From Clostridium algifaecis (GTDB lineage Bacteria > Bacillota > Clostridia > Clostridiales > Clostridiaceae), in the NCBI RefSeq assembly GCF_017874415.1, contig NZ_JAGGLM010000001.1:372001-436000 (forward strand): a DNA stretch of 64,000 nt, read 5' to 3'. A program made the position numbers and the translations under genes. Below, one piece after another: positions 1-14,754 of the stretch. The notes beneath the pieces are model-generated. The model worked only from the letters and a program-made list of their open reading frames with translations, ran no database searches and had not been told where the DNA came from. How positions within the stretch are numbered: position 1 is the stretch's first letter; each line of letters begins with the position of its first letter.

Positions 1-104
1 CAATTACCACAATCACAATTTATCGATGTTTTCTTTATAGATACTACAAAGCATAGATTTTTACCATGAACATAATTCAAAGCTTTGTCATCAATTTTTA
101 CCAT
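1..104 (-). CDS. Partial small Cys-containing protein (HesB-like or CC/Se-motif-like)
   Basis: The reading frame starts at an ATG (complement of 102-104) behind a GGAG ribosome binding site at 115-118 and runs off the left edge of the window. The 34 visible residues begin MVKIDDKALNYV and end with a CDCGN stretch. Short clostridial proteins of the HesB-like or CC/Se-motif (seleno)protein families begin in a similar way and carry a C-terminal cysteine or selenocysteine pair, but the diagnostic end is missing here. The family is therefore a guess, while the frame and start are well supported. It lies downstream of the NapH-like operon and has its own promoter of the type shared across this region (179-211). 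Confidence 0.5.
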   Translation of the reverse strand, partial: MVKIDDKALNYVHGKNLCFVVSIKKTSINCDCGN

Positions 105-178: not shown

Positions 179-211
179 ATTTTATAAAATTAATGTGTAG
201 ATTTTATGAAG
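179..211 (-). promoter_or_regulatory. Shared-architecture promoter, site A (partial gene at 1-104)
   Basis: Read on the minus strand: CTTCAT, 5 bp (AAAAT), CTACAC, 10 bp, then TAAAAT as a -10 box. Hexamer spacing (11 bp) and distance to the -10 box match the other five sites in this region. It is the weakest of the six. Confidence 0.4.
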
Positions 212-245
212 AAAATGCCATCAGAAAAATATTTTCCGACAGCAT
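208..245 (-). terminator. Rho-independent terminator of the 4690-to-251 operon
   Basis: On the minus strand, arms 232-245 and 215-228 form a 14-bp stem with three G-U pairs and a 3-base loop, followed by a T-rich stretch. It lies just after the stop of the NapH-like gene. Its T tract overlaps promoter site A. Confidence 0.7.
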
Positions 246-250
246 CTAAA

Positions 251-1645
251 CTACATACGCATTGACATTGGAAGCATAAACAGTAGTATGTTTATAATAC
301 ATAGTATTACTATTAAAAAACCATATACTATTGAAGTCTTTAGAGATTTGCTATTTTTGCCACCGTAATTACTCTTGGCAAGTCTATATGCAGTGTATAT
401 TGAACCTATAGTTCCAAGAACAATTAAAATATATTGGAGAACTTGTATTGTTGGGGTATCTAATATTGCTGTTGAACCTTGCATATTTATTCCGAATAAT
501 CCCATAAAAGTATAAAAAATTGATTTGCCTTCTGCTAGCAGATGGAAAAGGTTATGGGCTATATGGGCAGATAGATCTAGTGGGATGATGGCATATCCAA
601 ATTTAGCAAAGTTTTGTTTAACAGAATCTCCATTAAATTTTTTAGCAATTAATCCTGTTGTAGTTAACATTATTATAGGAATTAACATTGCTATAATAAA
701 TGTTATAGTAAAGATTACATAGTAGCTTGTAGTTCCAGTTATATGTTCAAGCCAACTTAAGATACCATTCCATATATCAACCATGGTAATATTTTGTACA
801 AATACAATACCCATAATTACAATAGCAAGGAAAGATTCTTCAAGTTTTGGCTTGCGAATAAACCATAACTCTCTAGTAGGTACACGTTGTGATATTCTTA
901 TAGAGTCATTAGGACAATTCTTTACACAGTTTCCACAAAAATTACATTCTGCATTGGTTTCCATAGCCCTTGGAAACTCAAACATAGGACACCCAGCGGC
1001 TTTATCACTGCCTTTGTAACAGGCTAAGACCTTACATTTGGCACACTTTTCAGGAGTAGCTCTAAGTTCCATCATTCCTGTTCTAGTATAGTTACCAGAT
1101 AATCCACCTAAAAAGCATAAATATCTGCACCAAGTTCTACGTTCAAATATTGCACCAGAAAATACTACACCAGTAGTAATCAATAACAATAGTGTTCCAG
1201 AACCTCTAGGCGATTCAACAACTCCAAAAACGTGATCACTCCAAGTAATTGCAATAAACGTTGCATCAATAATCCAAATTCCATATTTTTTTAAAAACTT
1301 AGGAACTGGATGGTTATTTCCAACAAATTTTTGAACAACATCGTTAAGAAGTCCAAAAGGACATATAGCACACCAAAATCTACCTAATAGGAATAACATA
1401 ATTGGCAGTATAGGCCACCATAATACCCATGTACCGGCAGTACCAAAATTATCATGGGCTTCAGCTGGTCCAAAGAGTAGTTGATATACTATAAATGCAA
1501 AAACTATTGCTACTGGCCATTGAAAGATACCAGGATACCACTTGCTTTTAATAAAGCTTGCAAATTTTTTATTATTTAAAAGATTTCTATCATCTGATGA
1601 GGATGTTTTTTCTTCATAAACTAAAGGTTTCTTTTTTTCTGACAT
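251..1645 (-). CDS. NapH/NosR/CcoG-type 4Fe-4S membrane polyferredoxin
   Basis: This 464-residue integral membrane iron-sulfur protein probably takes electrons from a quinol or cytosolic donor and passes them across or along the membrane. After a polar N-terminus, membrane helices start near residue 40. The family motifs GRFWCAICPFG (near residue 88) and CRYLCFLGG (near 173) are present, the second with Phe where CPLG is usual. Two [4Fe-4S] sites follow, the clearest CNFCGNCVKNCP near 233, then three or more C-terminal helices. No heme-binding CXXCH is present. It is the last gene of a minus-strand operon, 18 bp after the FixH-like gene. Family relatives pass quinol electrons to periplasmic reductases (NapH, NosR) or reduce copper (CcoG). 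Which role applies here is unknown. Confidence 0.75.
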   Translation of the reverse strand: MSEKKKPLVYEEKTSSSDDRNLLNNKKFASFIKSKWYPGIFQWPVAIVFAFIVYQLLFGPAEAHDNFGTAGTWVLWWPILPIMLFLLGRFWCAICPFGLLNDVVQKFVGNNHPVPKFLKKYGIWIIDATFIAITWSDHVFGVVESPRGSGTLLLLITTGVVFSGAIFERRTWCRYLCFLGGLSGNYTRTGMMELRATPEKCAKCKVLACYKGSDKAAGCPMFEFPRAMETNAECNFCGNCVKNCPNDSIRISQRVPTRELWFIRKPKLEESFLAIVIMGIVFVQNITMVDIWNGILSWLEHITGTTSYYVIFTITFIIAMLIPIIMLTTTGLIAKKFNGDSVKQNFAKFGYAIIPLDLSAHIAHNLFHLLAEGKSIFYTFMGLFGINMQGSTAILDTPTIQVLQYILIVLGTIGSIYTAYRLAKSNYGGKNSKSLKTSIVYGFLIVILCIINILLFMLPMSMRM

Positions 1646-1663
1646 AAAATATTACCTCGCTTT

Positions 1664-2203
1664 TTATGCTTTTATAGTTTTTTTCTTCTTTTTCTTTGTA
1701 ATCCCAGCAATCACTATTATTAAAGTAATTACAACTAAGAAACCTCCAATAACAAACCAATTAGGGCCAGAACTTACTACGTCTACATTAAAATCAGCCA
1801 TTTTTTCTCCATTACTTGCCATAAAGTTTGTTTTAACTTTCCATTTGCCTTTATCACTAAATTTTACAGTTCCAACGTATTCGCCATCTTCATGACCCTT
1901 TTTAAATTGGATAGTTTCAGGCTTGGAGTCATTCATATTCATATCACCCATGCTGCCTTTATCCATTTCTACATATACTTTCACATCAGCATTATTTATT
2001 GGCTTGTTCTTATCATCAGATAGTTTCAGTGTTAACTCATTTTCGCCAGTTTTGGCCTTGTCTCCTGTTAGAATAAGAGCTGCTTTAACTCCATCAACTG
2101 TCTGTTCTATCTTTTTTCCAGTACCATCAGCAAGCACTGATGTAGATAAAGTTAGAACTAGGGTTGAAATAATTGATAGCCTTTTAATTAGTTTGTTTTT
2201 CAT
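1664..2203 (-). CDS. FixH/YtkA-like exported, membrane-anchored protein
   Basis: This 179-residue protein has an N-terminal signal sequence ending near ADG (residue 27), an extracellular beta-rich domain of the FixH/YtkA type, a single C-terminal membrane helix (about 150-170) and a Lys-rich cytoplasmic tail. The domain contains a Met-rich segment (GSMGDMNMND, near residue 87) that could bind copper. FixH-like proteins accompany CcoG/FixG-type iron-sulfur proteins in cytochrome oxidase assembly loci. Here the neighbour is a FixG/NapH-like protein but no oxidase is nearby. The assignment to FixH/YtkA rests on size, topology and domain pattern. The exact function is unknown. Confidence 0.6.
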   Translation of the reverse strand: MKNKLIKRLSIISTLVLTLSTSVLADGTGKKIEQTVDGVKAALILTGDKAKTGENELTLKLSDDKNKPINNADVKVYVEMDKGSMGDMNMNDSKPETIQFKKGHEDGEYVGTVKFSDKGKWKVKTNFMASNGEKMADFNVDVVSSGPNWFVIGGFLVVITLIIVIAGITKKKKKKTIKA

Positions 2204-2270
2204 TTTGAATGCCTTCTTTCTATTATTGGTTTAATATTTTTGTTTTTTGAAATTAGTAATGATAATAGAA

Positions 2271-2786
2271 TTATTTCATTATCCTTATATTAGAATTTTT
2301 ATTAAAAAGTTTACTTAACTTAGGCAAAATAAATCTATCAAGACCAAATACATAGGCATTTGCTCCAGCAGCAATAAGCAAAATAGCAACAGTATATAAG
2401 TTAGGGTTTATGCTAGTTGTACCAGCTAACATATAATTTAGATTCATAAATGCCCCGGCAAGTAGACCAACAATTGTTAGAGCACCAAGAATTAATGAGA
2501 CACCTACTAATAGTTCACCAAAGGCCACTAGATAGCTGAAAATTTTGGCATTAGGCAGAGCAACGCTTTGAATAAAGCTGGCATACCAACCTTGCACTAA
2601 AGGATGATCTCCTGTAGCCTTAGCTAGTGCTCCTTTTAGAAAGCCTGTTATTGCTATTCCAGCTTTGCTTCCAACCCAGGTAGGGTTGGATACTTTTTCA
2701 ATGGCCGCAGATATCCATTCATAACCAAGCCAGATTCTAAGTACTGTCCAAAGAATAGCAAATCTTTTATCACGGAAAAATTTCAT
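2271..2786 (-). CDS. DoxX-family membrane protein
   Basis: This 171-residue protein has about four hydrophobic segments and the DoxX/DoxD layout: an N-terminal RIWLGYEWISA helix, then FGELLVGVSLILGALT and an AGANAYVFGLDRF C-terminal part. DoxX proteins are small membrane proteins linked to quinone or thiol redox chemistry, such as DoxD of thiosulfate:quinone oxidoreductase. Their exact role in Firmicutes is not settled. The gene sits in the operon between the polyprenyl synthase and the FixH-like gene, which supports a membrane redox role. It starts 6 bp after the upstream gene behind AGGAGTG. Confidence 0.75.
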   Translation of the reverse strand: MKFFRDKRFAILWTVLRIWLGYEWISAAIEKVSNPTWVGSKAGIAITGFLKGALAKATGDHPLVQGWYASFIQSVALPNAKIFSYLVAFGELLVGVSLILGALTIVGLLAGAFMNLNYMLAGTTSINPNLYTVAILLIAAGANAYVFGLDRFILPKLSKLFNKNSNIRIMK

Positions 2787-2792
2787 TTTTAT

Positions 2793-3629
2793 TTACACTC
2801 CTATCTTTAATACATTCTTTACTTTAGGACTATAAAAATCTAAAATATAGTCAACTAACATAATTAAGCTTTGTTTGTATGCTGAGTCTTTCAAGTTTTC
2901 AATAGAAACTTTAGCATTATATGCAAATTGAAAAGCATCTTCAATAGTTACATTTTTCATTGCAACGGGATCTTCATCGATATAATCATCTAGTATTTGA
3001 TATGCCATACCGAGGTTTTTACCATATTTAGAAAGCATATTAGAGTTTTCTTCGGTAGCATCAGCTATGCTGGCACCAAGCCTGCAACAAGCACTCATAA
3101 AGGAGGCTGTTTTTCCTAGAATGATTTTAAAATAGGTTTCACGATCTGGTGAGGGATTGTTAGCATTTAATATTTCAGCTATAGACATTGATTCAGTAAC
3201 TGCTCCCATTACTTGCGAAAATTTTCTTGGTAAAGTATCTGAAAAAATAGTAAAGGCTCTTGAGTATAAGGTATCACCAGCAAGTACTGCTATTTTATTT
3301 CCAAAGGTCTTATTTAAGGTTTTTTGACCACGTCTTAGTAAGTCGCCATCTATGATATCATCATGAATTAGACTTGAACTGTGAATAAGCTCTAAACCCA
3401 GTCCTAACTGAATTAAGTTATGTTCTGCAGATGGAGTAAGCTCACTGCTAATAGAACCTGCAGATAAAAATGTTAATGTTGGTCTTAGACGTTTGCCTGG
3501 GATTGAAAAAAAGTAACTAAGTATATTTTCTTTTGTAGTTTCATCTAATTCTGCTGCAATGTTTTTTAATTCTAAGTCAAGTTGATTAAGTTCTTTTATT
3601 ATTAGGATTGAGATTTCATTGAAGCTCAT
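2793..3629 (-). CDS. hepT: Polyprenyl diphosphate synthase (heptaprenyl/octaprenyl type)
   Basis: This is a trans-type prenyl chain elongation enzyme of 278 residues, which condenses isopentenyl diphosphate units to make the side chain of an isoprenoid quinone or a related lipid. Seen directly are GKRLRPTL near residue 49, the first Asp-rich motif HDDIIDGD (near 89) and the second DDYIDED (near 214). It is somewhat shorter than usual HepT/IspB proteins (about 320). Position between a MenG-like methyltransferase and DoxX, with a MenA-like gene just upstream, argues for quinone tail synthesis. Chain length cannot be read from the sequence. Confidence 0.8.
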   Translation of the reverse strand: MSFNEISILIIKELNQLDLELKNIAAELDETTKENILSYFFSIPGKRLRPTLTFLSAGSISSELTPSAEHNLIQLGLGLELIHSSSLIHDDIIDGDLLRRGQKTLNKTFGNKIAVLAGDTLYSRAFTIFSDTLPRKFSQVMGAVTESMSIAEILNANNPSPDRETYFKIILGKTASFMSACCRLGASIADATEENSNMLSKYGKNLGMAYQILDDYIDEDPVAMKNVTIEDAFQFAYNAKVSIENLKDSAYKQSLIMLVDYILDFYSPKVKNVLKIGV

Positions 3630-3653
3630 TTTTTCACCACCTATATATTTTAA

Positions 3654-4370
3654 TTAAGAAAGTTGACATTTTTTTACTCCATAATGAATAGAAGCAATTC
3701 CACCGGTTAAAGATATATATCCAGTTCTTATAAAGCCAATATCATCAAATAAAAGCTTCAACTTTTTTTTGGGCATAAAGTTCTTGACAGAATCTTTAAG
3801 GTAAGAATATGCCATTTTATCTTTTGTGCCTATATATCCAATAGTGGGCAGGACAAAGGTTAAATATATTGAATGCAATTCTTTGAGAATGGGAAGCTCT
3901 GGATTAGATAACTCAAGACAAACTAGTTTTCCTCCAGGCTTTAAAATTCTGTATATTTCTGATAAAGCTAGGTTTTTATTCTTAATGTTTCTAAGACCAA
4001 AGGCAATTGTTACATAGTTAAAACTATTATCTTCAAAGGGCAACTGTAAAATATCACCTTTAATTAGTTTGTACTTATAATCTCCTATACTATGCTTAAG
4101 TCGCTTATAGCCAACATTAATCATTTCCTGATTGAAATCAAGTCCTGTAATTTCAGTATTTTTACCTATTTTTCTGCAGGCATAATCAATCATTTGACCA
4201 GTACCGCAGCATAAATCTAATACTTTGTCATTGATTTTTAAATCACATATTCGTATAGCTTTTTTTCTCCAGAGTTTGTCTATATTAAAAGTAAGAATTG
4301 AATTCAACTTATCATATTTTTCTGCGATAGAGGAAAAAATATTTTGAATATCTATGGCATTATTCACCAT
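3654..4370 (-). CDS. menG: Demethylmenaquinone methyltransferase (MenG/UbiE family)
   Basis: This class I SAM-dependent methyltransferase would add the final ring methyl group to a prenylated quinone. The SAM-binding motif LDLCCGTGQ lies near residue 55, followed by GLDFNQEM, the UbiE-type AFGLRNI segment near 127, and LKPGGKLVCLELS. The ATG at 4368-4370 is preferred because GAAGG sits about 10 bp upstream. An in-frame ATG at 4391 would add seven residues with a poorer ribosome binding site. It lies 8-29 bp after the Met-rich gene and 24 bp before the polyprenyl synthase, so the three are probably cotranscribed. UbiE-family enzymes can act on other substrates, so the quinone role is inferred from context. 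Confidence 0.78.
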   Translation of the reverse strand: MVNNAIDIQNIFSSIAEKYDKLNSILTFNIDKLWRKKAIRICDLKINDKVLDLCCGTGQMIDYACRKIGKNTEITGLDFNQEMINVGYKRLKHSIGDYKYKLIKGDILQLPFEDNSFNYVTIAFGLRNIKNKNLALSEIYRILKPGGKLVCLELSNPELPILKELHSIYLTFVLPTIGYIGTKDKMAYSYLKDSVKNFMPKKKLKLLFDDIGFIRTGYISLTGGIASIHYGVKKCQLS

Positions 4371-4399
4371 GTGCAGTATACCTTCTTTCATAATTAAAT

Positions 4400-4690
4400 C
4401 TATACGACTTCTTTACTGTTTGTATCGTTTTTTTTACTATCGCAGCAACTTCCTTTTTTATTGTTACCCATCATCATCATTGGCATCATAAAGATCATCA
4501 TTATTGGGCACAAAAAAGGTGTTATTCTCCAAATTACACTACCAGCACTAGGGCTTAGCTTTGTTATTATTGGTAATAGTGCTACGATAACTATAGGTAA
4601 TCCACAACAGATAACCATATGCAGCATATGCTTTAATGAATTATGCTTATGGGTTACTTGTTTTTCTTTGTTATTTCCATGACAATTCAT
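4400..4690 (-). CDS. Small Met- and Cys-rich membrane protein of unknown function
   Basis: This 96-residue protein has a His/Cys-containing N-terminus, a first membrane helix around CCGLPIVIVALLP, and a second that is strikingly Met-rich (MMIFMMPMMMMG). A short tail with CC follows. No family could be assigned. Clustered Met, Cys and His suggest soft-metal binding such as copper, which is inference. It is the first gene of the operon running to base 251 and lies directly behind promoter site B. GGAGG precedes its ATG. Confidence 0.6.
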   Translation of the reverse strand: MNCHGNNKEKQVTHKHNSLKHMLHMVICCGLPIVIVALLPIITKLSPSAGSVIWRITPFLCPIMMIFMMPMMMMGNNKKGSCCDSKKNDTNSKEVV

Positions 4691-4724
4691 ATATATCCCT
4701 CCAAATAATTTTTATTTTATTTGA

Positions 4725-4768
4725 ATTATACAGTTTACATATAAAGAAGTTATGAAGAAATTAAGAAG
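4725..4768 (-). promoter_or_regulatory. Shared-architecture promoter, site B (Met-rich/menG/hepT operon)
   Basis: On the minus strand the order is CTTCTT, 5 bp, CTTCAT, 5 bp, CTTTAT, 10 bp, TATAAT. This gives three direct-repeat hexamers at an 11-bp period, with no good -35 box other than the repeats. It is the strongest of the six sites sharing this layout and fits an OmpR/PhoB-type activator bound in place of the -35 element. Confidence 0.7.
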
Positions 4769-4777
4769 TTATAAAAA

Positions 4778-5398
4778 TTACATTAGGGGAAGTAAAACAA
4801 ATATTGTTAAATCCCAAATAGCATGAGAGATAATTACTGGAATGATGCTCTTCTCTTTTTTATAAAGCCATCCCCAGAATAATCCGCATACGAAAGCTGC
4901 TATAATTAGCATAAAGTTACCTGTAGCAATATGCACAGCTGCGTATAATAAAACTGAAAATAAATATCCTTTGTTCTCTCCAAATTGTTTACCTAAAGTA
5001 TTCTGTATAAAGCCTCTCCAGTACAGTTCTTCACCTGGACCAATTATAAAAAATAGCAACAATCCTATTAGCTTTAGGTTAGCATTTGATCTATTACTAT
5101 AAACTGATGAAATTTGAGAATTTTTAAATGGAAATAAATATCCTGATATAATATTTCCTGCATAAAATATCACGTATAAGGCTATTGCTGAGAGTACTCC
5201 AATTAAAATATGTCTCCATTTTATTTTTCCAAAGGAGAAGATATCTCTATTAGAGAAGTAGGCCATTAATATTAACAGTAATATTGATCCACTCATTTCT
5301 ACCCAAAAGTTAAAGGGTTTTATAACAAACATTAAGTACCATAGAATTGCTGCTGTAAATAATGTAAAAGTTAAATATTTATAGTTTTTATTGTTCAA
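4778..5398 (-). CDS. CPBP-family intramembrane metalloprotease
   Basis: This multi-span membrane protein of about 206 residues has the CPBP (Abi/CAAX-like) motifs: GPGEELYWRGFIQ near residue 120, HIATGNF near 156 and HAIWD near 192. These hold the Glu and His residues that coordinate the catalytic metal. The TTG at 5396-5398 is preferred because GGAGGT lies 7 bp upstream. The ATG at 5413 overlaps that ribosome binding site. It follows the menA-like gene closely and is probably cotranscribed with it. Family members process or modify prenylated or other membrane substrates, or serve in bacteriocin immunity. No substrate can be inferred. Confidence 0.75.
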   Translation of the reverse strand: MNNKNYKYLTFTLFTAAILWYLMFVIKPFNFWVEMSGSILLLILMAYFSNRDIFSFGKIKWRHILIGVLSAIALYVIFYAGNIISGYLFPFKNSQISSVYSNRSNANLKLIGLLLFFIIGPGEELYWRGFIQNTLGKQFGENKGYLFSVLLYAAVHIATGNFMLIIAAFVCGLFWGWLYKKEKSIIPVIISHAIWDLTIFVLLPLM

Positions 5399-5418
5399 GG
5401 GTAATACCTCCATTTATC

Positions 5419-6312
5419 TTATATATAAGAAAATATCATTGAAATAATAAGTATAATTCCAAAGTGTCCCTGTAGTTTTGCTGTTTCCTGATCAAGTGCA
5501 GCAAGTTCAGAATTAGATTCATTAGATATACGTAATTTATTGATATTTTTCAATGCTTTTGGCAATGTAACCAGGCAAAGCAAACTCCAAATAGGGGTAA
5601 TGCCGTAATATATCATAGCCAAAACGGAAATATAGGATAGAGAAATTAAAAAGTAGTAAATATAACATGAATTAGTTCTTCCAATTATTATAGATATAGT
5701 TTTTATTCCAGCTTTTTTATCATTAAAAATATCTCTAATGTCATTTGCGTGCAGGATTGCTGTAGTTAAAAGTCCAACAGGAATTGATAACAAAAGTACA
5801 CTGGTGCTAATTTTCTGAATTTGTACAAAATATCCACCGAGTGTCATTAGAGGTCCAAAAATTATAAATACTAAAGGGGCACCTAAGCCTCTATACTTTA
5901 GCATAAGTGGTTTACCTGTATAAAAATAACCACTTAAAGCCCCTATAGCACCAATAATTAGAATAAAGAATCCTTTTTGAAAAGATAAAAACAATCCGAG
6001 TATACATCCTGAGGCTAAGACTAAATGTCCTCCTTTAGACAGTTCTTCAGGAGTTAATAAATTTTCAAAGATAACACCACTAGAAGAGCCGGATTCTTTT
6101 GTATCAACTTTATTTGTAAAATCGTCATAGTCGTTAAGCATATTTACAGAAGCTTGTAAAAGTACGGCAGCCAGTAAGGAAAGCAGGTAGTATATAAACT
6201 GAAAATTTGATTCTTTTCCAGCGAATATAGCACCTATTGTAACTGGTATTATAGAGGCTGTTAAGGAAAAAGGCCTTGCAGCTCTTAACCATATTTCAAA
6301 TTTTTGTTTCAT
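5419..6312 (-). CDS. menA: UbiA/MenA-family prenyltransferase, copy 1
   Basis: This polytopic membrane enzyme of 297 residues would attach a polyprenyl chain to an aromatic acceptor such as 1,4-dihydroxy-2-naphthoate. The two Asp-rich motifs of the superfamily are present: NMLNDYDDFTNKVD near residue 58 and NDIRDIFNDKKAG near 190. Sequence style and length fit MenA better than UbiA or ChlG. It is the first gene on the minus strand from the divergent region shared with the two-component system, and promoter site C lies upstream. GAGGAGG precedes the ATG. The acceptor is inferred from the menG and hepT neighbours. No menFDHCEB genes are in the window. Confidence 0.75.
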   Translation of the reverse strand: MKQKFEIWLRAARPFSLTASIIPVTIGAIFAGKESNFQFIYYLLSLLAAVLLQASVNMLNDYDDFTNKVDTKESGSSSGVIFENLLTPEELSKGGHLVLASGCILGLFLSFQKGFFILIIGAIGALSGYFYTGKPLMLKYRGLGAPLVFIIFGPLMTLGGYFVQIQKISTSVLLLSIPVGLLTTAILHANDIRDIFNDKKAGIKTISIIIGRTNSCYIYYFLISLSYISVLAMIYYGITPIWSLLCLVTLPKALKNINKLRISNESNSELAALDQETAKLQGHFGIILIISMIFSYI

Positions 6313-6395
6313 TTCTTATCCTCCTCATATATTTGTTACTATTAATCCTACAGTGCTCTTAAAAAGAAGTGGATTTAAATTTTTGATTTATATAT

Positions 6396-6428
6396 ACTAT
6401 AGATTAATGATATGAAGATTTTATAAAG
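6396..6428 (-). promoter_or_regulatory. Shared-architecture promoter, site C (menA copy 1)
   Basis: On the minus strand: CTTTAT, 5 bp (AAAAT), CTTCAT, 10 bp, TATAGT. It is the same 33-bp layout as sites B, D, E and F and lies 84 bp upstream of the menA start. Confidence 0.65.
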
Positions 6429-6463
6429 GTTCTTATATGATAAATTTTGTATAAATGTATAAT

Positions 6464-6496
6464 CTACATACAATCTTTACAAAGTTCAGCTATTAT
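6464..6496 (+). promoter_or_regulatory. Shared-architecture promoter, site D (two-component operon)
   Basis: On the plus strand: CTACAT, 5 bp (ACAAT), CTTTAC, 10 bp, TATTAT. It lies 53 bp upstream of the response regulator start and suggests autoregulation. The hexamers are less perfect than those at sites B, C and E. Confidence 0.5.
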
Positions 6497-6549
6497 TAGA
6501 ATTAATATTAGGATTAGTTTTTTAAAAATGTAAATTTGAGGTGAATGGT

Positions 6550-7233
6550 ATGAATAAAATTTTAATAGTAGAAGATGAGGAAAAGGTATCTAATATTCAA
6601 AAAGCATATCTGGAAAGGGAAGGTTATGAAGTATATACCTCGACAACCGGGTTAAAAGGTTTAGAACTATTTGATTCAATTGAATTTAGTTTGGTAATAC
6701 TTGATTTGATGTTACCAGATATTCAGGGAGAAGAAATATGCAAAATTATAAGAGATAAATCTGATGTGCATATATTTATGGTTACTGCTAAATCTGCATT
6801 AGAAGATAGAATCGAGGGGCTTAATACAGGCGCAGATGAGTATTTAGTTAAGCCTTTTAGCCCAAGAGAACTTGTTGCTAGAGTTAATTCTCTATTTAGA
6901 AGGTTAGAGGCAAATAACAGTCCAGTCTTATCTTTAGATAATGGAAGCATCCAAATATATAAAGATAGTAGAATAGTAAAGGTTAAAGGACAAGAAGTAT
7001 CTCTTACACCTAATGAATTTAATATTTTATATGCTCTTGCAATAAATAAAGGAAAGGTTCTTACTAGAGAACAATTAATTGACAGGGTTTTTGGTATGGA
7101 TTTTGAAGGATTTGACAGGACAATAGATGTTCACATAAAAAATATAAGAAAAAAAATAGAGGAAGACAGCAAAAATCCCAAGTATATTTTGACAGTTACA
7201 AGGATGGGATATAAGTTTGGTGGTGAAAGTTGA
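6550..7233 (+). CDS. OmpR/PhoB-family response regulator
   Basis: This is a 227-residue two-domain DNA-binding regulator. The receiver domain carries the acidic pair EDEE, the phospho-acceptor Asp in LVILDLMLPD (near residue 52) and the conserved Lys in VKPFSPREL. The C-terminal winged helix includes LTPNEFNILYAL and FDRTIDVHIKNIRKKI. The ATG at 6550 is preferred over the in-frame GTG at 6541 because GAGGTG lies 6 bp upstream. It overlaps the kinase gene by one base. Regulators of this class bind direct repeats at about 11-bp period, exactly what is seen at six promoters in bases 179-12986. It is therefore the best candidate regulator of that set. Confidence 0.88.
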   Translation: MNKILIVEDEEKVSNIQKAYLEREGYEVYTSTTGLKGLELFDSIEFSLVILDLMLPDIQGEEICKIIRDKSDVHIFMVTAKSALEDRIEGLNTGADEYLVKPFSPRELVARVNSLFRRLEANNSPVLSLDNGSIQIYKDSRIVKVKGQEVSLTPNEFNILYALAINKGKVLTREQLIDRVFGMDFEGFDRTIDVHIKNIRKKIEEDSKNPKYILTVTRMGYKFGGES

Positions 7234-8600
7234 TGCATAGTATTAGGAGAAAGCTAAGTATTATAATTTTAGCTTGCTCTATATTAGCGGCACTTTTAAC
7301 TGCTATCTTTGTAAATATCACAATAAATAATAAATTTAATGAATATATGGTGAATAACCAAAATAAAAGAAATGATAGAATAGTACAGTATTTTCAGGAG
7401 CTTTATAAAAGAGACAAGAAATGGACAGCCGATTCGGGAAGTGAAATGAAGCATGAAGCATTTATGAGCAATTATTGTTTAACTCTTTTAGATTCAAATA
7501 AAAAGCTGGTTTGGATGATGGACCCCAATGATATTAAAGAAAAAGAGCATTTTAACACTTTAGACAGTAAAAAAGGAGTTTTTACCACAAATACTTTTTC
7601 AATTAAATATGATGGTAATGTTGTTGGATATGTACAGATAGGTCAATATTCTTCGGTATTATTATCTTCTGATGATGTTAATTTTAAGTTGTCCATTAAC
7701 AAAGGAATTATTGCAAGTATTTTTTTTAGTCTTCTTATTGTAATAATTATCAGCTTGTATATTTCAAAACAGTTTTCAGTACCAATTAGAGAAGTGTCAA
7801 ATGTGTCAGTAAAACTATCTAATGGAGAATATAGTTCTAGAACTGATGTAGAAACAGACATACTAGAGATTGAGAAACTTAAGAGTAGTATAAATATGTT
7901 GGGAGAAAAGCTTAATCATCAGGACTTATTAAGAAAAAGACTGGTATCTGATATATCTCATGAAATAAGAACTCCACTGAATATTCTTCAAAATAACCTA
8001 GAAGCTATGATTGATGGAATTATTCCAGTAAATTCAGAACAGTTAACTGGGTTAAATGATGAAGTTATTAGGTTCGGAAAACTTTTAAATAACCTGAATA
8101 CTTTAAAGAGATTTGAAGCAGAGACAATTTCTATTAATAAAGAGAAGGTTTTATTGGATGAATTGTTATCTGTATTATGTGATGATTTTTCAATTGCGTT
8201 GAAAGAGAAAAATATTGATCTGGTTTACAATATAAGACCAGACAAAGACTACAGTATAATTGGTGATTCAGATAAATTAAAACAGGTATTTATTAACCTT
8301 TTATCTAATGCAGTAAAATTTTCAAATTATGGAGGAAAAATTTGGATTAACTTAACTAGAGATAAAGAAAATATTATTGTCAGTATAAGAGACACTGGGA
8401 TTGGAATTAGCAGGGAGGATTTACCTTTTATATTTGAAAGACTTTATAGGGGAGACAAGAGTAGAAATAAAATTGAGGGAAGCGGAATAGGATTAACGAT
8501 AGTAAAGGATATTTTAACTCTACATTCAGCGTCTATTGCTGTTGAAAGCCGAGTAGGTAAAGGATCTGCATTTACTATACGATTTAGAGATATTGATTAA
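7233..8600 (+). CDS. Membrane sensor histidine kinase with HAMP domain
   Basis: This 455-residue kinase has a first membrane helix near residues 9-30, an extracytoplasmic sensor of about 120 residues, a second helix near 153-173, a HAMP linker, and a HisKA domain with the phosphorylated His in DISHEIRTPL (near 250). The ATPase domain has NLLSNAVKFS (N box), DTGIGI and GSGIGLTIV (G boxes). The ATG at 7233 overlaps the regulator's TGA. A TTG one codon earlier is possible. The sensor domain has no recognisable family and no cysteine pair or heme motif, so the signal is unknown. It presumably phosphorylates the upstream response regulator. Confidence 0.88.
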   Translation: MHSIRRKLSIIILACSILAALLTAIFVNITINNKFNEYMVNNQNKRNDRIVQYFQELYKRDKKWTADSGSEMKHEAFMSNYCLTLLDSNKKLVWMMDPNDIKEKEHFNTLDSKKGVFTTNTFSIKYDGNVVGYVQIGQYSSVLLSSDDVNFKLSINKGIIASIFFSLLIVIIISLYISKQFSVPIREVSNVSVKLSNGEYSSRTDVETDILEIEKLKSSINMLGEKLNHQDLLRKRLVSDISHEIRTPLNILQNNLEAMIDGIIPVNSEQLTGLNDEVIRFGKLLNNLNTLKRFEAETISINKEKVLLDELLSVLCDDFSIALKEKNIDLVYNIRPDKDYSIIGDSDKLKQVFINLLSNAVKFSNYGGKIWINLTRDKENIIVSIRDTGIGISREDLPFIFERLYRGDKSRNKIEGSGIGLTIVKDILTLHSASIAVESRVGKGSAFTIRFRDID

Positions 8601-8637
8601 TATTTACACATTAAAATAAATTTTTTAATTATTTAAT

Positions 8638-8670
8638 CTTCATCTTTTCTTCATATGAGACTTATATAAT
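8638..8670 (+). promoter_or_regulatory. Shared-architecture promoter, site E (fixABCX)
   Basis: On the plus strand: CTTCAT, 5 bp (CTTTT), CTTCAT, 10 bp, TATAAT. The two hexamers are identical and 11 bp apart, in the position of the -35 box. It lies about 70 bp upstream of the fixA start. Confidence 0.7.
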
Positions 8671-8740
8671 AGAGCACAAACAATGAAAGATAATTGCAAA
8701 TGATAATTTTAAATAAAAGATTGAAGGAGTTGTTGTATAC

Positions 8741-9550
8741 TTGCATATTTTAGTTTGTGTGAAACAAGTACCTGATACTACAGAAATTAAGATAGATCCA
8801 AAAACAAATACATTAGATAGATCAAGTGCACCTACAATTATTAATCCTTATGATGCACATGCAGTAGAGGAAGCTGTAAAAATTAAAAATAAGTTTGGAG
8901 GTAAGGTCTCTATAATTTCAATGGGACCACCACAAGCGGAAAAAGTTATTAAAAAGTGTATTGAAATGGGAGCTGATGAAGGATATCTTCTTTCAGATAG
9001 AGCCTTTGCTGGTTCTGATACCCTGGCTACAAGTTATATACTTGCAATGGGGATAAAAAAAATAATAGAGAAAGAGACTATTGACTTGTTGTTTTGTGGA
9101 AAGCAGGCTATAGATGGAGATACTGCTCAAGTTGGGCCAGGTATCGCATCTAGACTTGGAATAGCGCAGTTAACCTATGTAGAAAAAGTAAAGTCATTAG
9201 ATTTAGAAAGTAATACTATTATAGTACACAGAAAAATTGATAATGGCTACGAAGTTGTTGAATCAAAGCTTCCATGTTTGATTACAGTGGAAAAAGATAT
9301 AAACGATTTAAGTTATTCTCCATTACCAAGTATGATTAGAGCGGCTCGTTATAAATCAACAGTTTGGGGAATTAATGATTTTAAAGCAGATATGAGTCAG
9401 TTAGGACTTAAAGGTTCTCCAACTTCAGTTCGACGTATATTTCCCCCAGCAAAAAGGTCTGGAGGAAAATTATTAAAGGGCAATGTTGATGAAATGGTAA
9501 AACAGCTTACAGATAGCTTGAAAGAAGGGATAGTTAGATGGCAGTTATAA
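8741..9550 (+). CDS. fixA: FixA/EtfB electron transfer flavoprotein beta subunit
   Basis: This is the 269-residue beta subunit of an electron transfer flavoprotein. The N-terminus MHILVCVKQVPDT and NPYDAHAVEEAVKIK are diagnostic of the EtfB/FixA family, and CGKQAIDGDTAQVGP is the nucleotide-binding region. The TTG start follows AAGGAG by 11 bp and gives the family's usual N-terminus. It overlaps fixB by 13 bp. The four-gene order fixA-fixB-fixC-fixX identifies a Fix/EtfABCX complex, which couples NADH oxidation to reduction of ferredoxin and a quinone by flavin-based bifurcation in characterised members. Confidence 0.88.
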   Translation: MHILVCVKQVPDTTEIKIDPKTNTLDRSSAPTIINPYDAHAVEEAVKIKNKFGGKVSIISMGPPQAEKVIKKCIEMGADEGYLLSDRAFAGSDTLATSYILAMGIKKIIEKETIDLLFCGKQAIDGDTAQVGPGIASRLGIAQLTYVEKVKSLDLESNTIIVHRKIDNGYEVVESKLPCLITVEKDINDLSYSPLPSMIRAARYKSTVWGINDFKADMSQLGLKGSPTSVRRIFPPAKRSGGKLLKGNVDEMVKQLTDSLKEGIVRWQL

Positions 9551-10791
9551 TTTCAAATTCCTGTATTGGATGTGAATCATGTATCCCAAGTTGTCCATTC
9601 AATGCTTTAGAGATTAATGGAGAAAGTAAACTAGTAGTTAGTAAACAAAAGTGTATTGAATGTGGGAAATGTGTATCAGTATGTCCAATTTCTGCATTAA
9701 GTATTTTAAGCAGTAAAAAGAAACCTAATAATAGCCTACAGAATGACACTAAGGAAGATAACAAAGTTTCAAAGTTAGAAAAGCATACTGGAGATGTATG
9801 GGTTTTTGTAGAACAATTGGAAGGCGAATTAGCTTCTGTTACTCTTGAACTTATTGGTGCTGCAAGAAAGCTTGCTTCGAAATTAGGGGTAAAAGTATGT
9901 ACAGTTTTATTAGGTGATAAAGTTGAAACTATAATATCTGAGCTTTTTTCATATGGCGTAGATGTCATATATGTTATAGACGATGAAGTATTTCATTTCT
10001 ATAGAGCTGAAACTTATAGCAGAGCTTTCTGCTATTTAATAGATAAGTATAAACCGGAAATATTATTAATGGGAGCAACAACTACAGGTAGGGATTTAGC
10101 TGGTGCCGTTGCAACTGCAAAGAAAACTGGACTTACAGCAGATTGTACCGGGCTGGACATTGACTTAGATAAAAGAATACTACTTGCCAGTCGTCCGGCC
10201 TTTGGAGGAAATATAATGGCTACTATTGTATGTGAAAAATGTCGTCCTCAAATGGCTACTGTTCGACCAAGAGTTATGCAGATGCCAGAATCTAAGTTAA
10301 ATAAAACAGGCTCTGTAGTTAAAGAGATTTTTAAAATTGAAGAAAAATCTCTTAAAACTAAAGTTTTGGAAATTATTAAGGAACAGTCAGAAAATGCAAA
10401 ACTTGAGGATGCTAAAATTATAGTTTGCGGCGGGAGAGGTGTGCAAAATGAACAAGGATTTAAATTGCTGGAGGAACTAGCAAAAGTCATTGGAGGAGTA
10501 GTGGCAGGAAGTCGTGGTGCGGTAGAGAAGGGATTGGTAGATCATAAACGTCAAGTTGGGCAGACAGGTCAAACCGTATCTCCAAAGCTATACTTTGCTA
10601 TAGGAATTTCAGGTGCAATACAGCATACTGTTGGAATTCAGGGAGCAGAAACTATAGTTTGTATAAATATAGATCCTGAATGTGAAATGATGAAGTTGGC
10701 TACTTATGGAATACAGGGAGATGTTTTTGAAGTATTACCTAAATTAATTAATAGTTTCAAGGATTTATGTACAATTACGGAGGAGGTTTAA
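9538..10791 (+). CDS. fixB: FixB/EtfA alpha subunit with N-terminal 2x[4Fe-4S] ferredoxin domain
   Basis: The 417 residues split into a ferredoxin-like N-terminus, with motifs CIGCESCIPSCP near residue 8 and CIECGKCVSVCP near 41, and an EtfA body from about residue 80. The C-terminal FAD domain carries GSRGAVEKGLVD and GQTGQTVSPKLYFAIGISGAIQH. Many FixB proteins lack the ferredoxin extension. Similar extensions occur in the alpha subunits of the caffeyl-CoA reductase and lactate dehydrogenase ETFs of acetogens. The extra clusters could serve as an electron exit to ferredoxin. Translation is probably coupled to fixA. Confidence 0.87.
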   Translation: MAVIISNSCIGCESCIPSCPFNALEINGESKLVVSKQKCIECGKCVSVCPISALSILSSKKKPNNSLQNDTKEDNKVSKLEKHTGDVWVFVEQLEGELASVTLELIGAARKLASKLGVKVCTVLLGDKVETIISELFSYGVDVIYVIDDEVFHFYRAETYSRAFCYLIDKYKPEILLMGATTTGRDLAGAVATAKKTGLTADCTGLDIDLDKRILLASRPAFGGNIMATIVCEKCRPQMATVRPRVMQMPESKLNKTGSVVKEIFKIEEKSLKTKVLEIIKEQSENAKLEDAKIIVCGGRGVQNEQGFKLLEELAKVIGGVVAGSRGAVEKGLVDHKRQVGQTGQTVSPKLYFAIGISGAIQHTVGIQGAETIVCINIDPECEMMKLATYGIQGDVFEVLPKLINSFKDLCTITEEV

Positions 10792-10795
10792 AAGA

Positions 10796-12091
10796 TTGAC
10801 TGAAAAATTTGATGTTATTATTGTAGGTGCTGGCGTTTCAGGACTTGCAGCAGCATATGTAATGGCAAAAGAAGGTCTTAATGTTATTGTTATTGAAAAA
10901 GGTAAATACCCTGGTTCAAAAAATGTTATGGGTGGGGTATTATATCGTCATATGATGGATGAAATTATTCCAGAGTTCTGGAAGGAAGCACCTCTTGAAC
11001 GTCCTATTGTTGAGCAAAATTTTTGGCTGCTGGGTAAAGATTCTGTTGTAAAGACAGGGTATAGAGGAATGGAATGGTCCAAGCCTCCATATAATAATTT
11101 TACAGTTTTCAGAAGCAAGTTTGATCAATGGTTTTCAAAAAAATGTATAGAAGTTGGTGCTTTAATTATCAATGAAACTGTTGTAAAGGAATGTATTATA
11201 GAAAATAATAAAGTTGTTGGAGTTAGAACAGATAGACCAGAGGGAGATATTTATGCTGATGTAGTTGTTCTTGCTGATGGTGTTAACTCATTATTAGCTA
11301 AAAGTCTTGGATTTCATAAAGAATGGCGTAAGGATCAGGTAGCTCTTGCAGTTATGGAGGAATTAAAACTGCCTTCAGATAAAATTGAAGAAAGATTCAA
11401 TTTGGACAAAGGTATGGGAGCAACTATAGAAATGTTTGGCGATGGAACCTTAGGAATGGTAGGTACAGCATTTATCTATACCAATAAGGAACATATATCT
11501 ATTGGCTGCGGAGCTTTGCTTTCTGAGATGAGCAAGAGAAATGTTAAGCCTTATGAATTATTAGAATATATAAAACAGCACCCTGTTATAAAACCTTTAA
11601 TTGCAGGAAGTGAAGCAAATGAATATTATGCACATTTAATTCCAGAAGGAGGATATAATAGTATACCTAAATTAGTAGGAAATGGTGTTTTAGTGATTGG
11701 TGATGCAGCACAGTTTGTTAACGGTATTCATAGAGAAGGATCAAATTTAGGAATGACATCTGGACGTTTTGCTGCAAAGACTATTATACAGGCTAAGAAA
11801 TTAGGTAAATTCAATGAACAGACACTTTCACATTATCAAGAGCTGCTTAAAGAAAGTTATGTTATGAAAGATCTGAAAAAATATAAAAATGCATCTCAAA
11901 CCATGGAAAAAAATCCACAGTTTTTTAATCATTATATACCGGCAGCTAACAAGGTAATGAGTGAAATGTTTACTGTAGATGGAGTATCAAAAAGAAAAAA
12001 ACAAAAGTTAGCTATTAAACACATAATTGGTGGAAAATCTTTATTAAGTATGGGTATAGATGGGTTTAAAATATGGAGGGCGATGAAATAA
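10796..12091 (+). CDS. fixC: FixC, FAD-dependent ETF:quinone oxidoreductase-like subunit
   Basis: This 431-residue flavoprotein has an N-terminal Rossmann motif (VGAGVSGLAAAY) and a C-terminal FAD-contact motif beginning VIGDAAQFVNGIHREGSNLG. Length and motifs match FixC rather than the longer fused mitochondrial ETF-QO. Family members pass electrons from the ETF to a membrane quinone. A TTG start at 10796 lies about 9 bp after AGGAGG. The stop overlaps the fixX start (TAATG). This gene predicts that the cell has a quinone-like acceptor, consistent with the menA, menG and hepT genes nearby. Confidence 0.88.
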   Translation: MTEKFDVIIVGAGVSGLAAAYVMAKEGLNVIVIEKGKYPGSKNVMGGVLYRHMMDEIIPEFWKEAPLERPIVEQNFWLLGKDSVVKTGYRGMEWSKPPYNNFTVFRSKFDQWFSKKCIEVGALIINETVVKECIIENNKVVGVRTDRPEGDIYADVVVLADGVNSLLAKSLGFHKEWRKDQVALAVMEELKLPSDKIEERFNLDKGMGATIEMFGDGTLGMVGTAFIYTNKEHISIGCGALLSEMSKRNVKPYELLEYIKQHPVIKPLIAGSEANEYYAHLIPEGGYNSIPKLVGNGVLVIGDAAQFVNGIHREGSNLGMTSGRFAAKTIIQAKKLGKFNEQTLSHYQELLKESYVMKDLKKYKNASQTMEKNPQFFNHYIPAANKVMSEMFTVDGVSKRKKQKLAIKHIIGGKSLLSMGIDGFKIWRAMK

Positions 12092-12384
12092 TGGAAGATA
12101 CAAAAGTAAAAGTTAATATTGATGATAATCTATATTTAAATACTTATAATGCAGACACACTTCCTCATTTAACTATAAAGGATCAGAAGATATGTGATAA
12201 TTGTAAGGAAAAGATATGTACTTTTATTTGCCCAGCTCGTGTTTATGAATGCAAGGATGGACATGTTACTGTTTGTTATGAAGGTTGTCTTGAATGTGGA
12301 GCCTGTCGTATAATTTGTCCTTATAATAATATTGATTGGAACTTCCCAAGGGGAGGTTTTGGTATACAGTTTAGATTGGCATAG
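12091..12384 (+). CDS. fixX: FixX ferredoxin-like protein
   Basis: This 97-residue protein has the FixX pattern. A first cysteine group is CDNCKEKICTFICP, the second is CLECGACRIICP, and the C-terminal signature is FPRGGFGIQFRLA. It forms the iron-sulfur partner of FixC, joining the ETF flavins to the quinone site. The ATG at 12091 overlaps the fixC stop and has GGAGGG 10 bp upstream. An in-frame ATG at 12073 lacks a ribosome binding site. Confidence 0.9.
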   Translation: MEDTKVKVNIDDNLYLNTYNADTLPHLTIKDQKICDNCKEKICTFICPARVYECKDGHVTVCYEGCLECGACRIICPYNNIDWNFPRGGFGIQFRLA

Positions 12385-12474
12385 CAGAATTATAATATTA
12401 TACAAGTATATAAATGTATTCCTTTGCACATAATATTTTTTGTGTAAAACAAAAAATAAAGAAGGTGTTTTAAA

Positions 12475-12822
12475 ATGGGAGTTGCAACAATGGTATCAAA
12501 TAAATATCAGAAATGTATTGATGAATGTGATAGATGTGCACAAGCATGCTATGAATGCTTTGAGGCATGTATTAATGAACCTGATTTAAATGCAAGAAAA
12601 AGCTGTGTGAAAATATTAGTTGAATGTGCAAAAATGTGTGAAATGTCAGCAGGGCTTATGTCTATGAATGGACAATTTGTAAAAGAACATTGTAATATGT
12701 GTGCTACAATCTGTGATAAATGTGCACAAGAATGTTCGATGTTTAAAGATGAGCATTGCCAAAAATGTGCAAAAGAATGTCGTACATGCGCTGATGAATG
12801 TAGAAGAATGGCTTCAATGTAA
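12475..12822 (+). CDS. Cys-rich four-helix-bundle protein (cytosolic copper-storage-like, DUF326)
   Basis: This 115-residue protein contains 19 cysteines arranged as repeated CXXXC and CXXC pairs on predicted helices (for example CIDECDRCAQACYEC). The pattern is that of the four-helix-bundle copper-binding (Csp/DUF326) family. There is no signal peptide, so it resembles the cytosolic type. It lies 90 bp after fixX with no clear terminator between, so it may be read from the fix promoter, and a strong terminator follows. Cysteine-lined bundles of this family store many Cu(I) ions. Whether this one handles copper or another thiophilic metal is not shown. Confidence 0.72.
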   Translation: MGVATMVSNKYQKCIDECDRCAQACYECFEACINEPDLNARKSCVKILVECAKMCEMSAGLMSMNGQFVKEHCNMCATICDKCAQECSMFKDEHCQKCAKECRTCADECRRMASM

Positions 12823-12828
12823 CAGCTT

Positions 12829-12875
12829 ATAAAAAACAGTCAGTAACTTTGTTGGTTATTGACTGTTTTTTATAA
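12829..12875 (+). terminator. Rho-independent terminator after the Cys-rich bundle gene
   Basis: Arms 12829-12847 and 12855-12873 form a long stem with one mismatch around a short loop, ending in a T run. It closes the fix transcription unit. Confidence 0.85.
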
Positions 12876-12953
12876 ATGTGAATAAAACACTACTATATAA
12901 ATTAATCATATGGATAACCAATTAAGTTACTTTTTATTAATTTATGCAACTAC

Positions 12954-12986
12954 CTCCATAAAATCTACATAATAAATATATATAAT
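12954..12986 (+). promoter_or_regulatory. Shared-architecture promoter, site F (chemoreceptor operon)
   Basis: On the plus strand: CTCCAT, 5 bp (AAAAT), CTACAT, 10 bp, TATAAT. It has the same 33-bp layout as sites A-E and lies 55 bp upstream of the chemoreceptor start. Confidence 0.55.
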
Positions 12987-13041
12987 AAAAAATATGTATC
13001 AACATAAGTAAGTATTAATGTATGTGTATGGAGGAGTAAGA

Positions 13042-14754
13042 ATGAAGATATTTAATAATTTAAAAATTGCACCGAAACTTATAAGCTGCTTTTTATTGGT
13101 ATCAATTCTTATGGCAACGTTAGGTACTATAGGGATATTACAAATAAAAAAGATAAATACAAATTCAACTTCAATGTATAAAGATAATCTATTACATATA
13201 AGAAAAGTAGGGGCTTTAAAAGAAAATTTTCTGCAAATACATTCGGATCTAATATCTCTTTTAACTACAAAAGATTCATTAAAAAAGCAGCAAATAGAAA
13301 ATGAAATGGATAAGCTAACAGAAGAAGATATGACTATATCAAAAGATTTTAAAGATACTAATGCAACAGGCGATGAAAAAGAATTATTAACTCAATTTAA
13401 TAAAAATCATGATAGTTACATGATGGCACGAAAAAATTTTATGAAATTAATAAATTCAGATAAATATGATGAAGCTCAATTGAAACTTAATACAGTATTA
13501 GAAGCAAGACAAAAGACTTTTAACGTTATTAATGAACTTATAAATTTGAATTTAAAAGAGGCTCAAGATGCTAATGAATCTAATAATTCAATATACAAAT
13601 TAGCATTAAATACTATGATTTCTATTGTAATATTTGGTTTTATTATTGCTATACTGCTAGGAATACTAATATCAACATCTTTATCAAAAAGAATAAATAA
13701 AGTTTTTTTATTTGCAGATGCTTTAGAAAATGGAGATTTGACTAAAAGAATTGATATATGTGCAAATGATGAAGTTGGTAAACTCTCGGAAGCTTTAAAT
13801 AAGGCAGCCAAAAATACTCATAAATTAATATCTACAATAAGTTCAAGTTCTACTAACATGAGCAATTCTAGTGAAGATATATCTACAACTATAGAAGAAA
13901 TATCTGTAAAGATGTCCAATATTAACGAATCAACTAGGGAAATATCATCTGGAACAGAAAATTTAAGCGCGATTTCAGAAGAAGTAAATGCTTCAATTCA
14001 AGAGATAAGTTCAAATACAACAGAGCTTTCAAATAAAGCTAGTGATGGAGATAAAGCATCAAATGAGGTACAAGCTCGTGCAACTGAAATAAAGAACAAA
14101 GGACTAAAGGCTATTGATGCATCTCAAAATATATATAAAGAAAAACAAATTAATATAGTTAAGGCTATAGAAGATGGAAAAGTTGTTGAGAAAATTAAAG
14201 TTATGGCAGATTCCATAGCAAATATAGCTTCTCAAACTAATCTTTTAGCACTTAATGCTGCTATTGAATCGGCAAGAGCAGGAGAAATGGGAAAAGGATT
14301 TGCAGTAGTTGCAGATGAAATACGTAAACTTGCAGAACAGTCATCAAGTAATGTTTCAAGTATTCAAAATGTCATAAAACAGGTAAATGAAGCATTTAGT
14401 AACTTATCTAATAATACGCAAGATATACTGGCTTTTATTGATAATAATGTGAATCCAGATTATAAATTGTTTTTGGAAATATCAGAAAAATATGAGAAAG
14501 ATGCTGCTTTTATAAAAAATATGTCAGAGGAAATATCCAGTGGTACGTTACAAATAGTAAACTCTATAGAGCAGACTAGTTCAGCTATTGAAAATGTATC
14601 AACAACAGCTGAGCAATCTGCATCAAGTTCTGAAGGAATACTAAATAGTGTTAGTGAAACAAGTTATGCAATTGAAGAAGTATCTAAATCAGCTCAAAGG
14701 CAAGCAGAATTAGCTGAAGAATTGAATAGTTTAGTACAGAAGTTTAAAATATAA
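13042..14754 (+). CDS. Methyl-accepting chemotaxis protein
   Basis: This 570-residue chemoreceptor has a first membrane helix near residues 12-33, a four-helix-bundle type periplasmic sensor of about 150 residues, a second helix near 190-212, a HAMP domain, and a signalling coiled coil. The highly conserved hairpin tip is [18 protein letters not shown], followed by [18 protein letters not shown]. The ATG at 13042 is preferred because GGAGGAG lies upstream of it. An ATG at 13018 lacks a site. It is followed 39 bp later by a second MenA-like gene, and its promoter matches the quinone-module set, so it may steer the cell in response to the same redox or chemical signal. That link is inference. 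Confidence 0.85.

Follow-up and report, generated by a model that had tools for sequence, protein, structure and literature searches.

A stretch of 64 kb from the Clostridium algifaecis genome (contig NZ_JAGGLM010000001.1, positions 372,001 to 436,000; hereafter the window) carries six promoters, placed before quinone, Fix-like, chemoreceptor, two-component and cysteine-motif genes, and raises the question of whether these form one regulon and which protein might control it. A first-pass annotation had read all six with an identical layout, a hexamer, 5 bp, a second hexamer, 10 bp and a -10-like hexamer, which we tested as the consensus CTTCAT-N5-CTTCAT-N10-TATAAT; all six sites (A to F, Table 1) do read in this way. 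We confirm that the observation is real and far above chance. The sites are very likely operators of activator-dependent promoters, making up one regulon under the OmpR-family response regulator encoded at 6550 and the sensor histidine kinase encoded at 7230. Judged from sequence comparison, this switch would very probably turn on genes of membrane redox and of metal handling in concert. Two results go beyond the annotation: there is a seventh site elsewhere in the genome, and metal-handling genes are targets in other clostridia.

Sites A to F differ from the consensus at 3, 1, 2, 4, 0 and 2 positions respectively, and their -10 boxes lie 74, 34, 83, 53, 70 and 31 bases from the start codon. 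At up to 3 mismatches the window holds 5 matches, all among the reported sites, against an average of 0.54 in 100 shuffles, none of which reached 5. The predicted half-sites are better written as 8-mers, TCTTCATA, in an 11-bp register; the fuller motif is TCTTCATA-N3-TCTWCATA-N9-TATAAT, and it recurs with the same spacing near orthologues of the adjacent sensor kinase. When orthologous promoters are aligned, the motif forms a conserved block at A, C, D and E, most clearly at A, where the flanks have diverged.

An alignment of the kinase sensor, which contains no promoter information, yielded 46 loci from other genomes (847,569 bases, 35 genomes), and a weight matrix was trained on 75 distinct sites from other genomes only; some training loci come from the genus of the window and none, apparently, from its own genome. 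Applied to the window, the matrix placed exactly A, E, B, F, C and D in its top six positions (scores in Table 1). The next position, at 13.9 bits, overlaps B and corresponds to a third repeat reported there at first pass, which is present but poorly conserved in relatives; the one after it scored 11.4 bits, and the best in 30 simulated windows 16.2. Sites A (3 mismatches) and D (4) rest on this independent matrix, because the consensus scan at up to 3 mismatches is noise genome-wide.

Both composition and spacing recur at the 46 kinase loci, where the window consensus at up to 2 mismatches and 5/10 spacing gave 76 matches in 34 loci. Of the other 24 spacings tried, one, 5/8, gave 17 matches, 10 of them beginning at the same base as a 5/10 match, and the remainder gave 0–5 each; six permuted controls gave 0–7. 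At the same -10 spacing, half-sites separated by 3, 4, 6 or 7 bp returned 1, 4, 1 and 2 matches beside the peak of 76 at 5 bp, in keeping with an 11-bp register. The matrix found 133 sites of at least 20 bits in 44 of the 46 loci, 5 of them inside open reading frames (ORFs), and none in any of 5 Markov shuffles; this count is partly circular, as these loci supplied the training sites, although 57 of the 133 are not training matches. At least one site was present in 33 of the 35 kinase-bearing genomes.

Throughout the window's own genome (2,964,918 bases, 53 contigs) 8 positions match the consensus with no more than 2 mismatches, namely four of the reported sites, one intergenic match on contig C7 and three inside ORFs; at up to 3 mismatches there were 45 matches against 37 for a reversed control, and this level was not used. 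The scan originally suggested, CTWCAT-N5-CTWCAT-N10-TANNNT, does match site E and the C7 site but is too strict, having 2 matches in the genome and 1 in the reversed control. A degenerate pattern fitted to all six sites, CTHYATNNNWTCTWYAYA-N9-TANNNT, is circular for the six themselves; it gave 7 matches, the six sites and the C7 site, against 1 in the control. Six of these seven surround a single two-component gene pair, its own promoter included. The seventh (Table 1) precedes a DUF6803 gene, orthologues of which are preceded by a site in eight other genomes of the genus (G002, G003, G005, G006, G007, G008, G010 and G011). A weak eighth candidate (C7:16094-16126, 18.9 bits) lies upstream of a glycosyltransferase-like gene, behind which comes a two-component pair, and the orthologous sites in G008 and G006 score 30.4 and 23.7 bits. 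Over 13 genomes of the genus the degenerate pattern has 67 matches against 6 in the control; a few of the 67, such as a recurrent CTATATATATTCTTTACA in five genomes, seem unlike real sites. The unmodified consensus, with 2 mismatches allowed, totals 103 against 21. No degenerate match occurs in G004, G009 or G012; G004 lacks any kinase match at E<=1e-40, and the top kinase matches in G009 and G012 reach 34% and 32% identity.

The architecture of these promoters fits activator dependence. No hexamer within 2 mismatches of TTGACA occurs at a spacing of 15–19 from the -10 box in 73 of the 75 sites, nor in any of the six window sites, the best candidate having at least 3 mismatches; random AT-rich DNA has such a -35 box in about 27% of cases. 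The repeat therefore appears to occupy the -35 position, as described for PhoB. The proposal that an OmpR/PhoB-type direct repeat replaces the -35 box is thus supported by the rarity of the motif, its conserved spacing at orthologous kinases and the missing -35 box.

The regulator at 6550 had been named as the candidate binder, and two kinds of evidence favour it. Its gene lies directly downstream of site D, as it does behind a site in 17 of the 43 kinase loci that hold the regulator gene, and we propose that site D, before the two-component genes, may serve autoregulation. Furthermore, the motif is associated with the type of recognition helix. Among 25 four-kb loci matching the kinase, the helix DRxxDxxxKNxRxKIE occurs in 16, all with a site of at least 18 bits (the lowest being 21.0), and the helix PGDSRTVDVH[IV]KRLREKL in 6, none with a site. 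We infer that the regulator would bind and activate the six promoters. In the kinase sensor, H75, M79, C83 and M97 are invariant in 9 aligned sequences. Both proteins stay below the cut-offs of the following families: the regulator scores 183.2 bits against 296.2 for PhoB (TIGR02154) and 167.9 against 279.2 for the heavy-metal family TIGR01387, and the kinase 152.1 against 292.55 for its heavy-metal counterpart TIGR01386, 214.4 against 500 for BaeS_SmeS and 199.9 against 725 for WalK.

Table 1. Predicted operator sites and associated genes; positions are those of the window, except for the seventh site, on contig C7 of the same genome (G000).
Feature	Position	Strand	Description
Site A	179-211	-	CTTCAT-N5-CTACAC-N10-TAAAAT; upstream of Cys-motif gene; 33.9 bits, rank 1 in window
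Site B	4725-4768	-	CTTCAT-N5-CTTTAT-N10-TATAAT, with weak third upstream repeat; 32.6 bits, rank 3
Site C	6396-6428	-	CTTTAT-N5-CTTCAT-N10-TATAGT; upstream of menA; 27.6 bits, rank 5
Site D	6464-6496	+	CTACAT-N5-CTTTAC-N10-TATTAT; upstream of two-component genes; 21.8 bits, rank 6
Site E	8638-8670	+	CTTCAT-N5-CTTCAT-N10-TATAAT; upstream of fixABCX; 32.9 bits, rank 2
Site F	12954-12986	+	CTCCAT-N5-CTACAT-N10-TATAAT; upstream of chemoreceptor/UbiA genes; 29.2 bits, rank 4
Seventh site	G000:C7:4913-4945	-	35.5 bits; upstream of 161-aa DUF6803 membrane protein
Cys-motif protein, N-terminal part	1-104	-	CDCGNC motif; 102 aa in full; downstream of A
Gene row after B	251-4690	-	Met/His/Cys-rich 96-aa protein, MenG, polyprenyl synthase, DoxD/DoxX, YtkA-like, NapH-like Fer4_5 membrane protein
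CPBP/Rce1-like protease gene	4778-5413	-	Rce1-like PF02517
menA	5419-6312	-	MenA TIGR00751, 123.7 bits (cut-off 102.15)
OmpR-family response regulator	6550-7233	+	Response_reg and Trans_reg_C; recognition helix DRTIDVHIKNIRKKIE; proposed binder of all six sites
Sensor histidine kinase	7230-8600	+	HisKA and HATPase_c
fixABCX-like genes	8741-12384	+	ETF; ETF with ETF_alpha and Fer4; FAD oxidoreductase; Fer4_ETF_QO
DUF326 Cys-rich (Csp-like) gene	12475-12822	+	DUF326; weak Csp1 match, 29.2 bits (cut-off 100)
Chemoreceptor	13018-14754	+	4HB_MCP_1, MCPsignal; downstream of F
Second UbiA-family prenyltransferase	14794-15693	+	UbiA PF01040

Behind site A, the cysteine gene described at first pass as partial is complete in the genome (C1:371796-372104) and merely cut by the window edge; its product has no Pfam or NCBIfam match, and in 2 of the 3 kinase loci that hold the gene its orthologue directly follows a site. 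The row after B is probably one operon, in which MenG scores above the NCBIfam cut-offs NF001244 and TIGR01934 and the polyprenyl synthase meets no equivalog cut-off among the 16 families listed. The DUF326 gene lies directly after fixX and may encode a metal store behind the fix genes. Most of the cluster is present twice in C. ljungdahlii ERI-2 (G006; C1:424001-444000 and C2:70001-90000), and one of its NapH-like proteins is 96% identical to that of the window, against 85% for that of G005, which hints at horizontal transfer.

Targets in other clostridia give an indication of the inducing signal. The commonest direct target at the 46 loci is a membrane protein combining HMA, DsbD_2 and cupredoxin domains (genes were assigned by BLAST to one representative), which is present in 25 loci and has the site directly upstream in 22. 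Besides the regulator itself, direct targets include Met/His/Cys-rich proteins (site in 11 of 13 loci with the gene), PcsB-like proteins (8 of 9), polyprenyl synthase (7 of 7) and DUF6803 (7 of 7), and, more rarely, YHS/Cys-rich proteins, CsoR-like metal-sensitive repressors (2 of 6) and small HMA-only proteins (2 of 3). In one genome, G003, a site is followed by YHS and SHOCT genes and then, at a distance of about 1 kb, by a Cu-type P-ATPase gene. The only metal-handling candidates under the operator in the window genome are the Met/His/Cys-rich protein and the DUF326 gene. Our best guess is that the signal is copper or another thiophilic metal, and a copper-type signal seems to us somewhat better than an even proposition.

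Several observations weigh against this account. Within the 10 and 6 kb fetched around them, neither of the two best copper-ATPase homologues in the window genome has a site reaching 12 bits, and the targets elsewhere include peptidoglycan-hydrolase-like proteins, which makes the metal reading uncertain. The matches of the sensor model were all of the common PAS/Cache type. With regard to the regulator, 3 of the 25 four-kb loci yielded no regulator, and some of the genomes behind the count of 16 out of 16 had also supplied training sites, so that this count is not entirely independent. Motif sites are present at L053 and L054, where the regulator has another helix, and at L061 and L062, where no helix was found by the search pattern; these are longer stretches, partly inside the regulon. 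L102 and L106, from two of the 35 genomes with a kinase orthologue, have no site of at least 20 bits within the fetched flanks, and the system in these two genomes may have decayed or been rewired. Finally, the kinase adjacent to the motif in G002, G003 and G011 is only 32–33% identical, and the regulator 49–50%; hence, the helix association supports a subfamily rather than one protein, and several related regulators may share the motif.

That the pattern arose by chance, in an AT-rich genome with many CTTCAT-like words, might be argued from the genome count at up to 3 mismatches (45 against 37), but we give this negligible weight because it is refuted by the independent matrix, as well as by the spacing spectrum and conservation in other genomes. 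A real operator could also be common to a group of paralogous regulators within one subfamily, or bound mainly by another of them, so that its promoters integrate more than one signal. Regulators with the KN-type helix, 49–53% identical, adjoin the same motif in G002, G003, G006 and G011, and the 18.9-bit C7 site, with its orthologues at 30.4 bits in G008 and 23.7 in G006, stands at a row with another two-component pair; against this, six of the seven pattern matches in the genome surround the pair at 6550 and 7230, and we think this reading unlikely.

A stronger contender, though we hold it to be the less probable view, is that the system senses envelope or membrane-redox stress rather than metal, through a BaeS/WalK-like kinase with the quinone genes as its main output. 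PcsB-like and NlpC/P60-like proteins are among the targets, the kinase finds its best NCBIfam match in BaeS, albeit below cut-off, and WalK and BaeS domains occur among many weak fold matches. However, HMA-DsbD_2-cupredoxin proteins form the most frequent target family, sites also precede CsoR-like and HMA-only genes, and the His, Met and Cys residues of the sensor are invariant.

For the regulon we favour, under the regulator at 6550, the mechanism would run as follows. The signal would lead, via the kinase at 7230, to phosphorylation of the regulator, two monomers of which would bind head to tail on two TCTTCATA half-sites 11 bp apart. The bound repeat would sit where the -35 box is usually read and recruit sigma-A polymerase, as in PhoB-activated promoters. 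The regulator, the row from the Met/His/Cys-rich protein through MenG, polyprenyl synthase, DoxD and YtkA to NapH, menA, fixABCX, the chemoreceptor and UbiA genes and the Cys-motif protein would then be expressed jointly, along with the DUF6803 membrane protein on another contig.

Sites lie directly before menA, polyprenyl synthase or its row, and fixABCX in C. ljungdahlii-type relatives, C. magnum and the window genome alike, with the NapH-like gene further along the polyprenyl synthase row. MenD and MqnC have no match above cut-off in 13 genomes of the genus (among 14 well-known genomes used as controls, 7 and 2 respectively had one), and MenB has none in the window genome, the sole genome tested for it; therefore, a precursor would be taken up, or the product would be another prenylated compound. 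The same two possibilities, precursor salvage or an unknown prenylated product, are posed by the presence of MenA, MenG, polyprenyl synthase and a second UbiA protein together in the window (2793-6312, 14794-15693). C. ljungdahlii, C. autoethanogenum, C. coskatii and C. magnum have been described in PMC8578096 as quinone-free organisms with a ‘Fix-like complex’, whose function there ‘cannot be as described in quinone-containing organisms’. Co-regulated menA, menG and polyprenyl synthase genes may offer a way out of this puzzle. A tentative and rather doubtful extension is that in C. ljungdahlii-type clostridia a quinone-dependent membrane redox module, otherwise silent, is turned on by a two-component system of copper type; in this module a naphthoquinone precursor salvaged from neighbouring organisms is prenylated and methylated, a bifurcating Fix complex reduces the quinone, and a NapH/CcoG-like protein acts as quinol or copper oxidoreductase. 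If so, the Fix-like complex of C. ljungdahlii-type acetogens would gain its missing quinone and its trigger. Placing this complex, in C. ljungdahlii and C. magnum, under a common switch with menA, menG and polyprenyl synthase makes a question of acetogen energy metabolism directly testable.

The regulon was not found in the published literature searched, and its parts recall several known systems. Like ccoGHIS (fixGHIS), the window has a Fer4-type NapH-like protein beside a YtkA-like protein, and relatives have HMA/DsbD_2 proteins, although the window protein is below NapH cut-offs. CcoG is a cupric reductase according to PMC7558416, and one may speculate that the NapH-like protein acts likewise. 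CusRS/CopRS are resembled in the metal-handling targets of other genomes and in a sensor bearing Met, His and Cys; unlike them, the window pair falls below heavy-metal family cut-offs, the output includes quinone and Fix genes, and no resistance-nodulation-division (RND) efflux gene was recognised among the targets, though RND genes were not searched for. RR_1586 of Clostridioides difficile is, according to PMC6222199, an OmpR-family regulator with 11-nt direct-repeat units whose targets were sought by comparative genomics; it has the consensus DRTTAAGNWWW and sporulation/germination targets, and represses two promoters in reporter assays. The window system shares a clostridial OmpR-family regulator with 11-nt direct-repeat units, its binding at the window sites being predicted, and differs in consensus and in targets. 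The closest model for the promoters is PhoB of E. coli, for which PMC4415409 and PMC3348028 describe two 11-nt direct-repeat units over the -35 region, bound by a head-to-tail dimer of this OmpR-family protein. The window sites likewise place an 11-bp direct repeat at the -35 position. The system here departs from the E. coli one in the half-site, which is CTGTCAT in the PHO box and TCTTCATA here, in a regulator below the PhoB cut-off, and perhaps in the targets; no phosphate gene was recognised among the window genes or among the targets, many of the latter assigned from their sequence alone and not by family searches. The mechanism would nonetheless be of a known kind, and its assignment as an OmpR/PhoB-type direct-repeat activator promoter is well supported; what the comparison adds to that model is a sharp, testable operator, a candidate regulator and an expected target list for a regulon in 33 of 35 kinase-bearing genomes.

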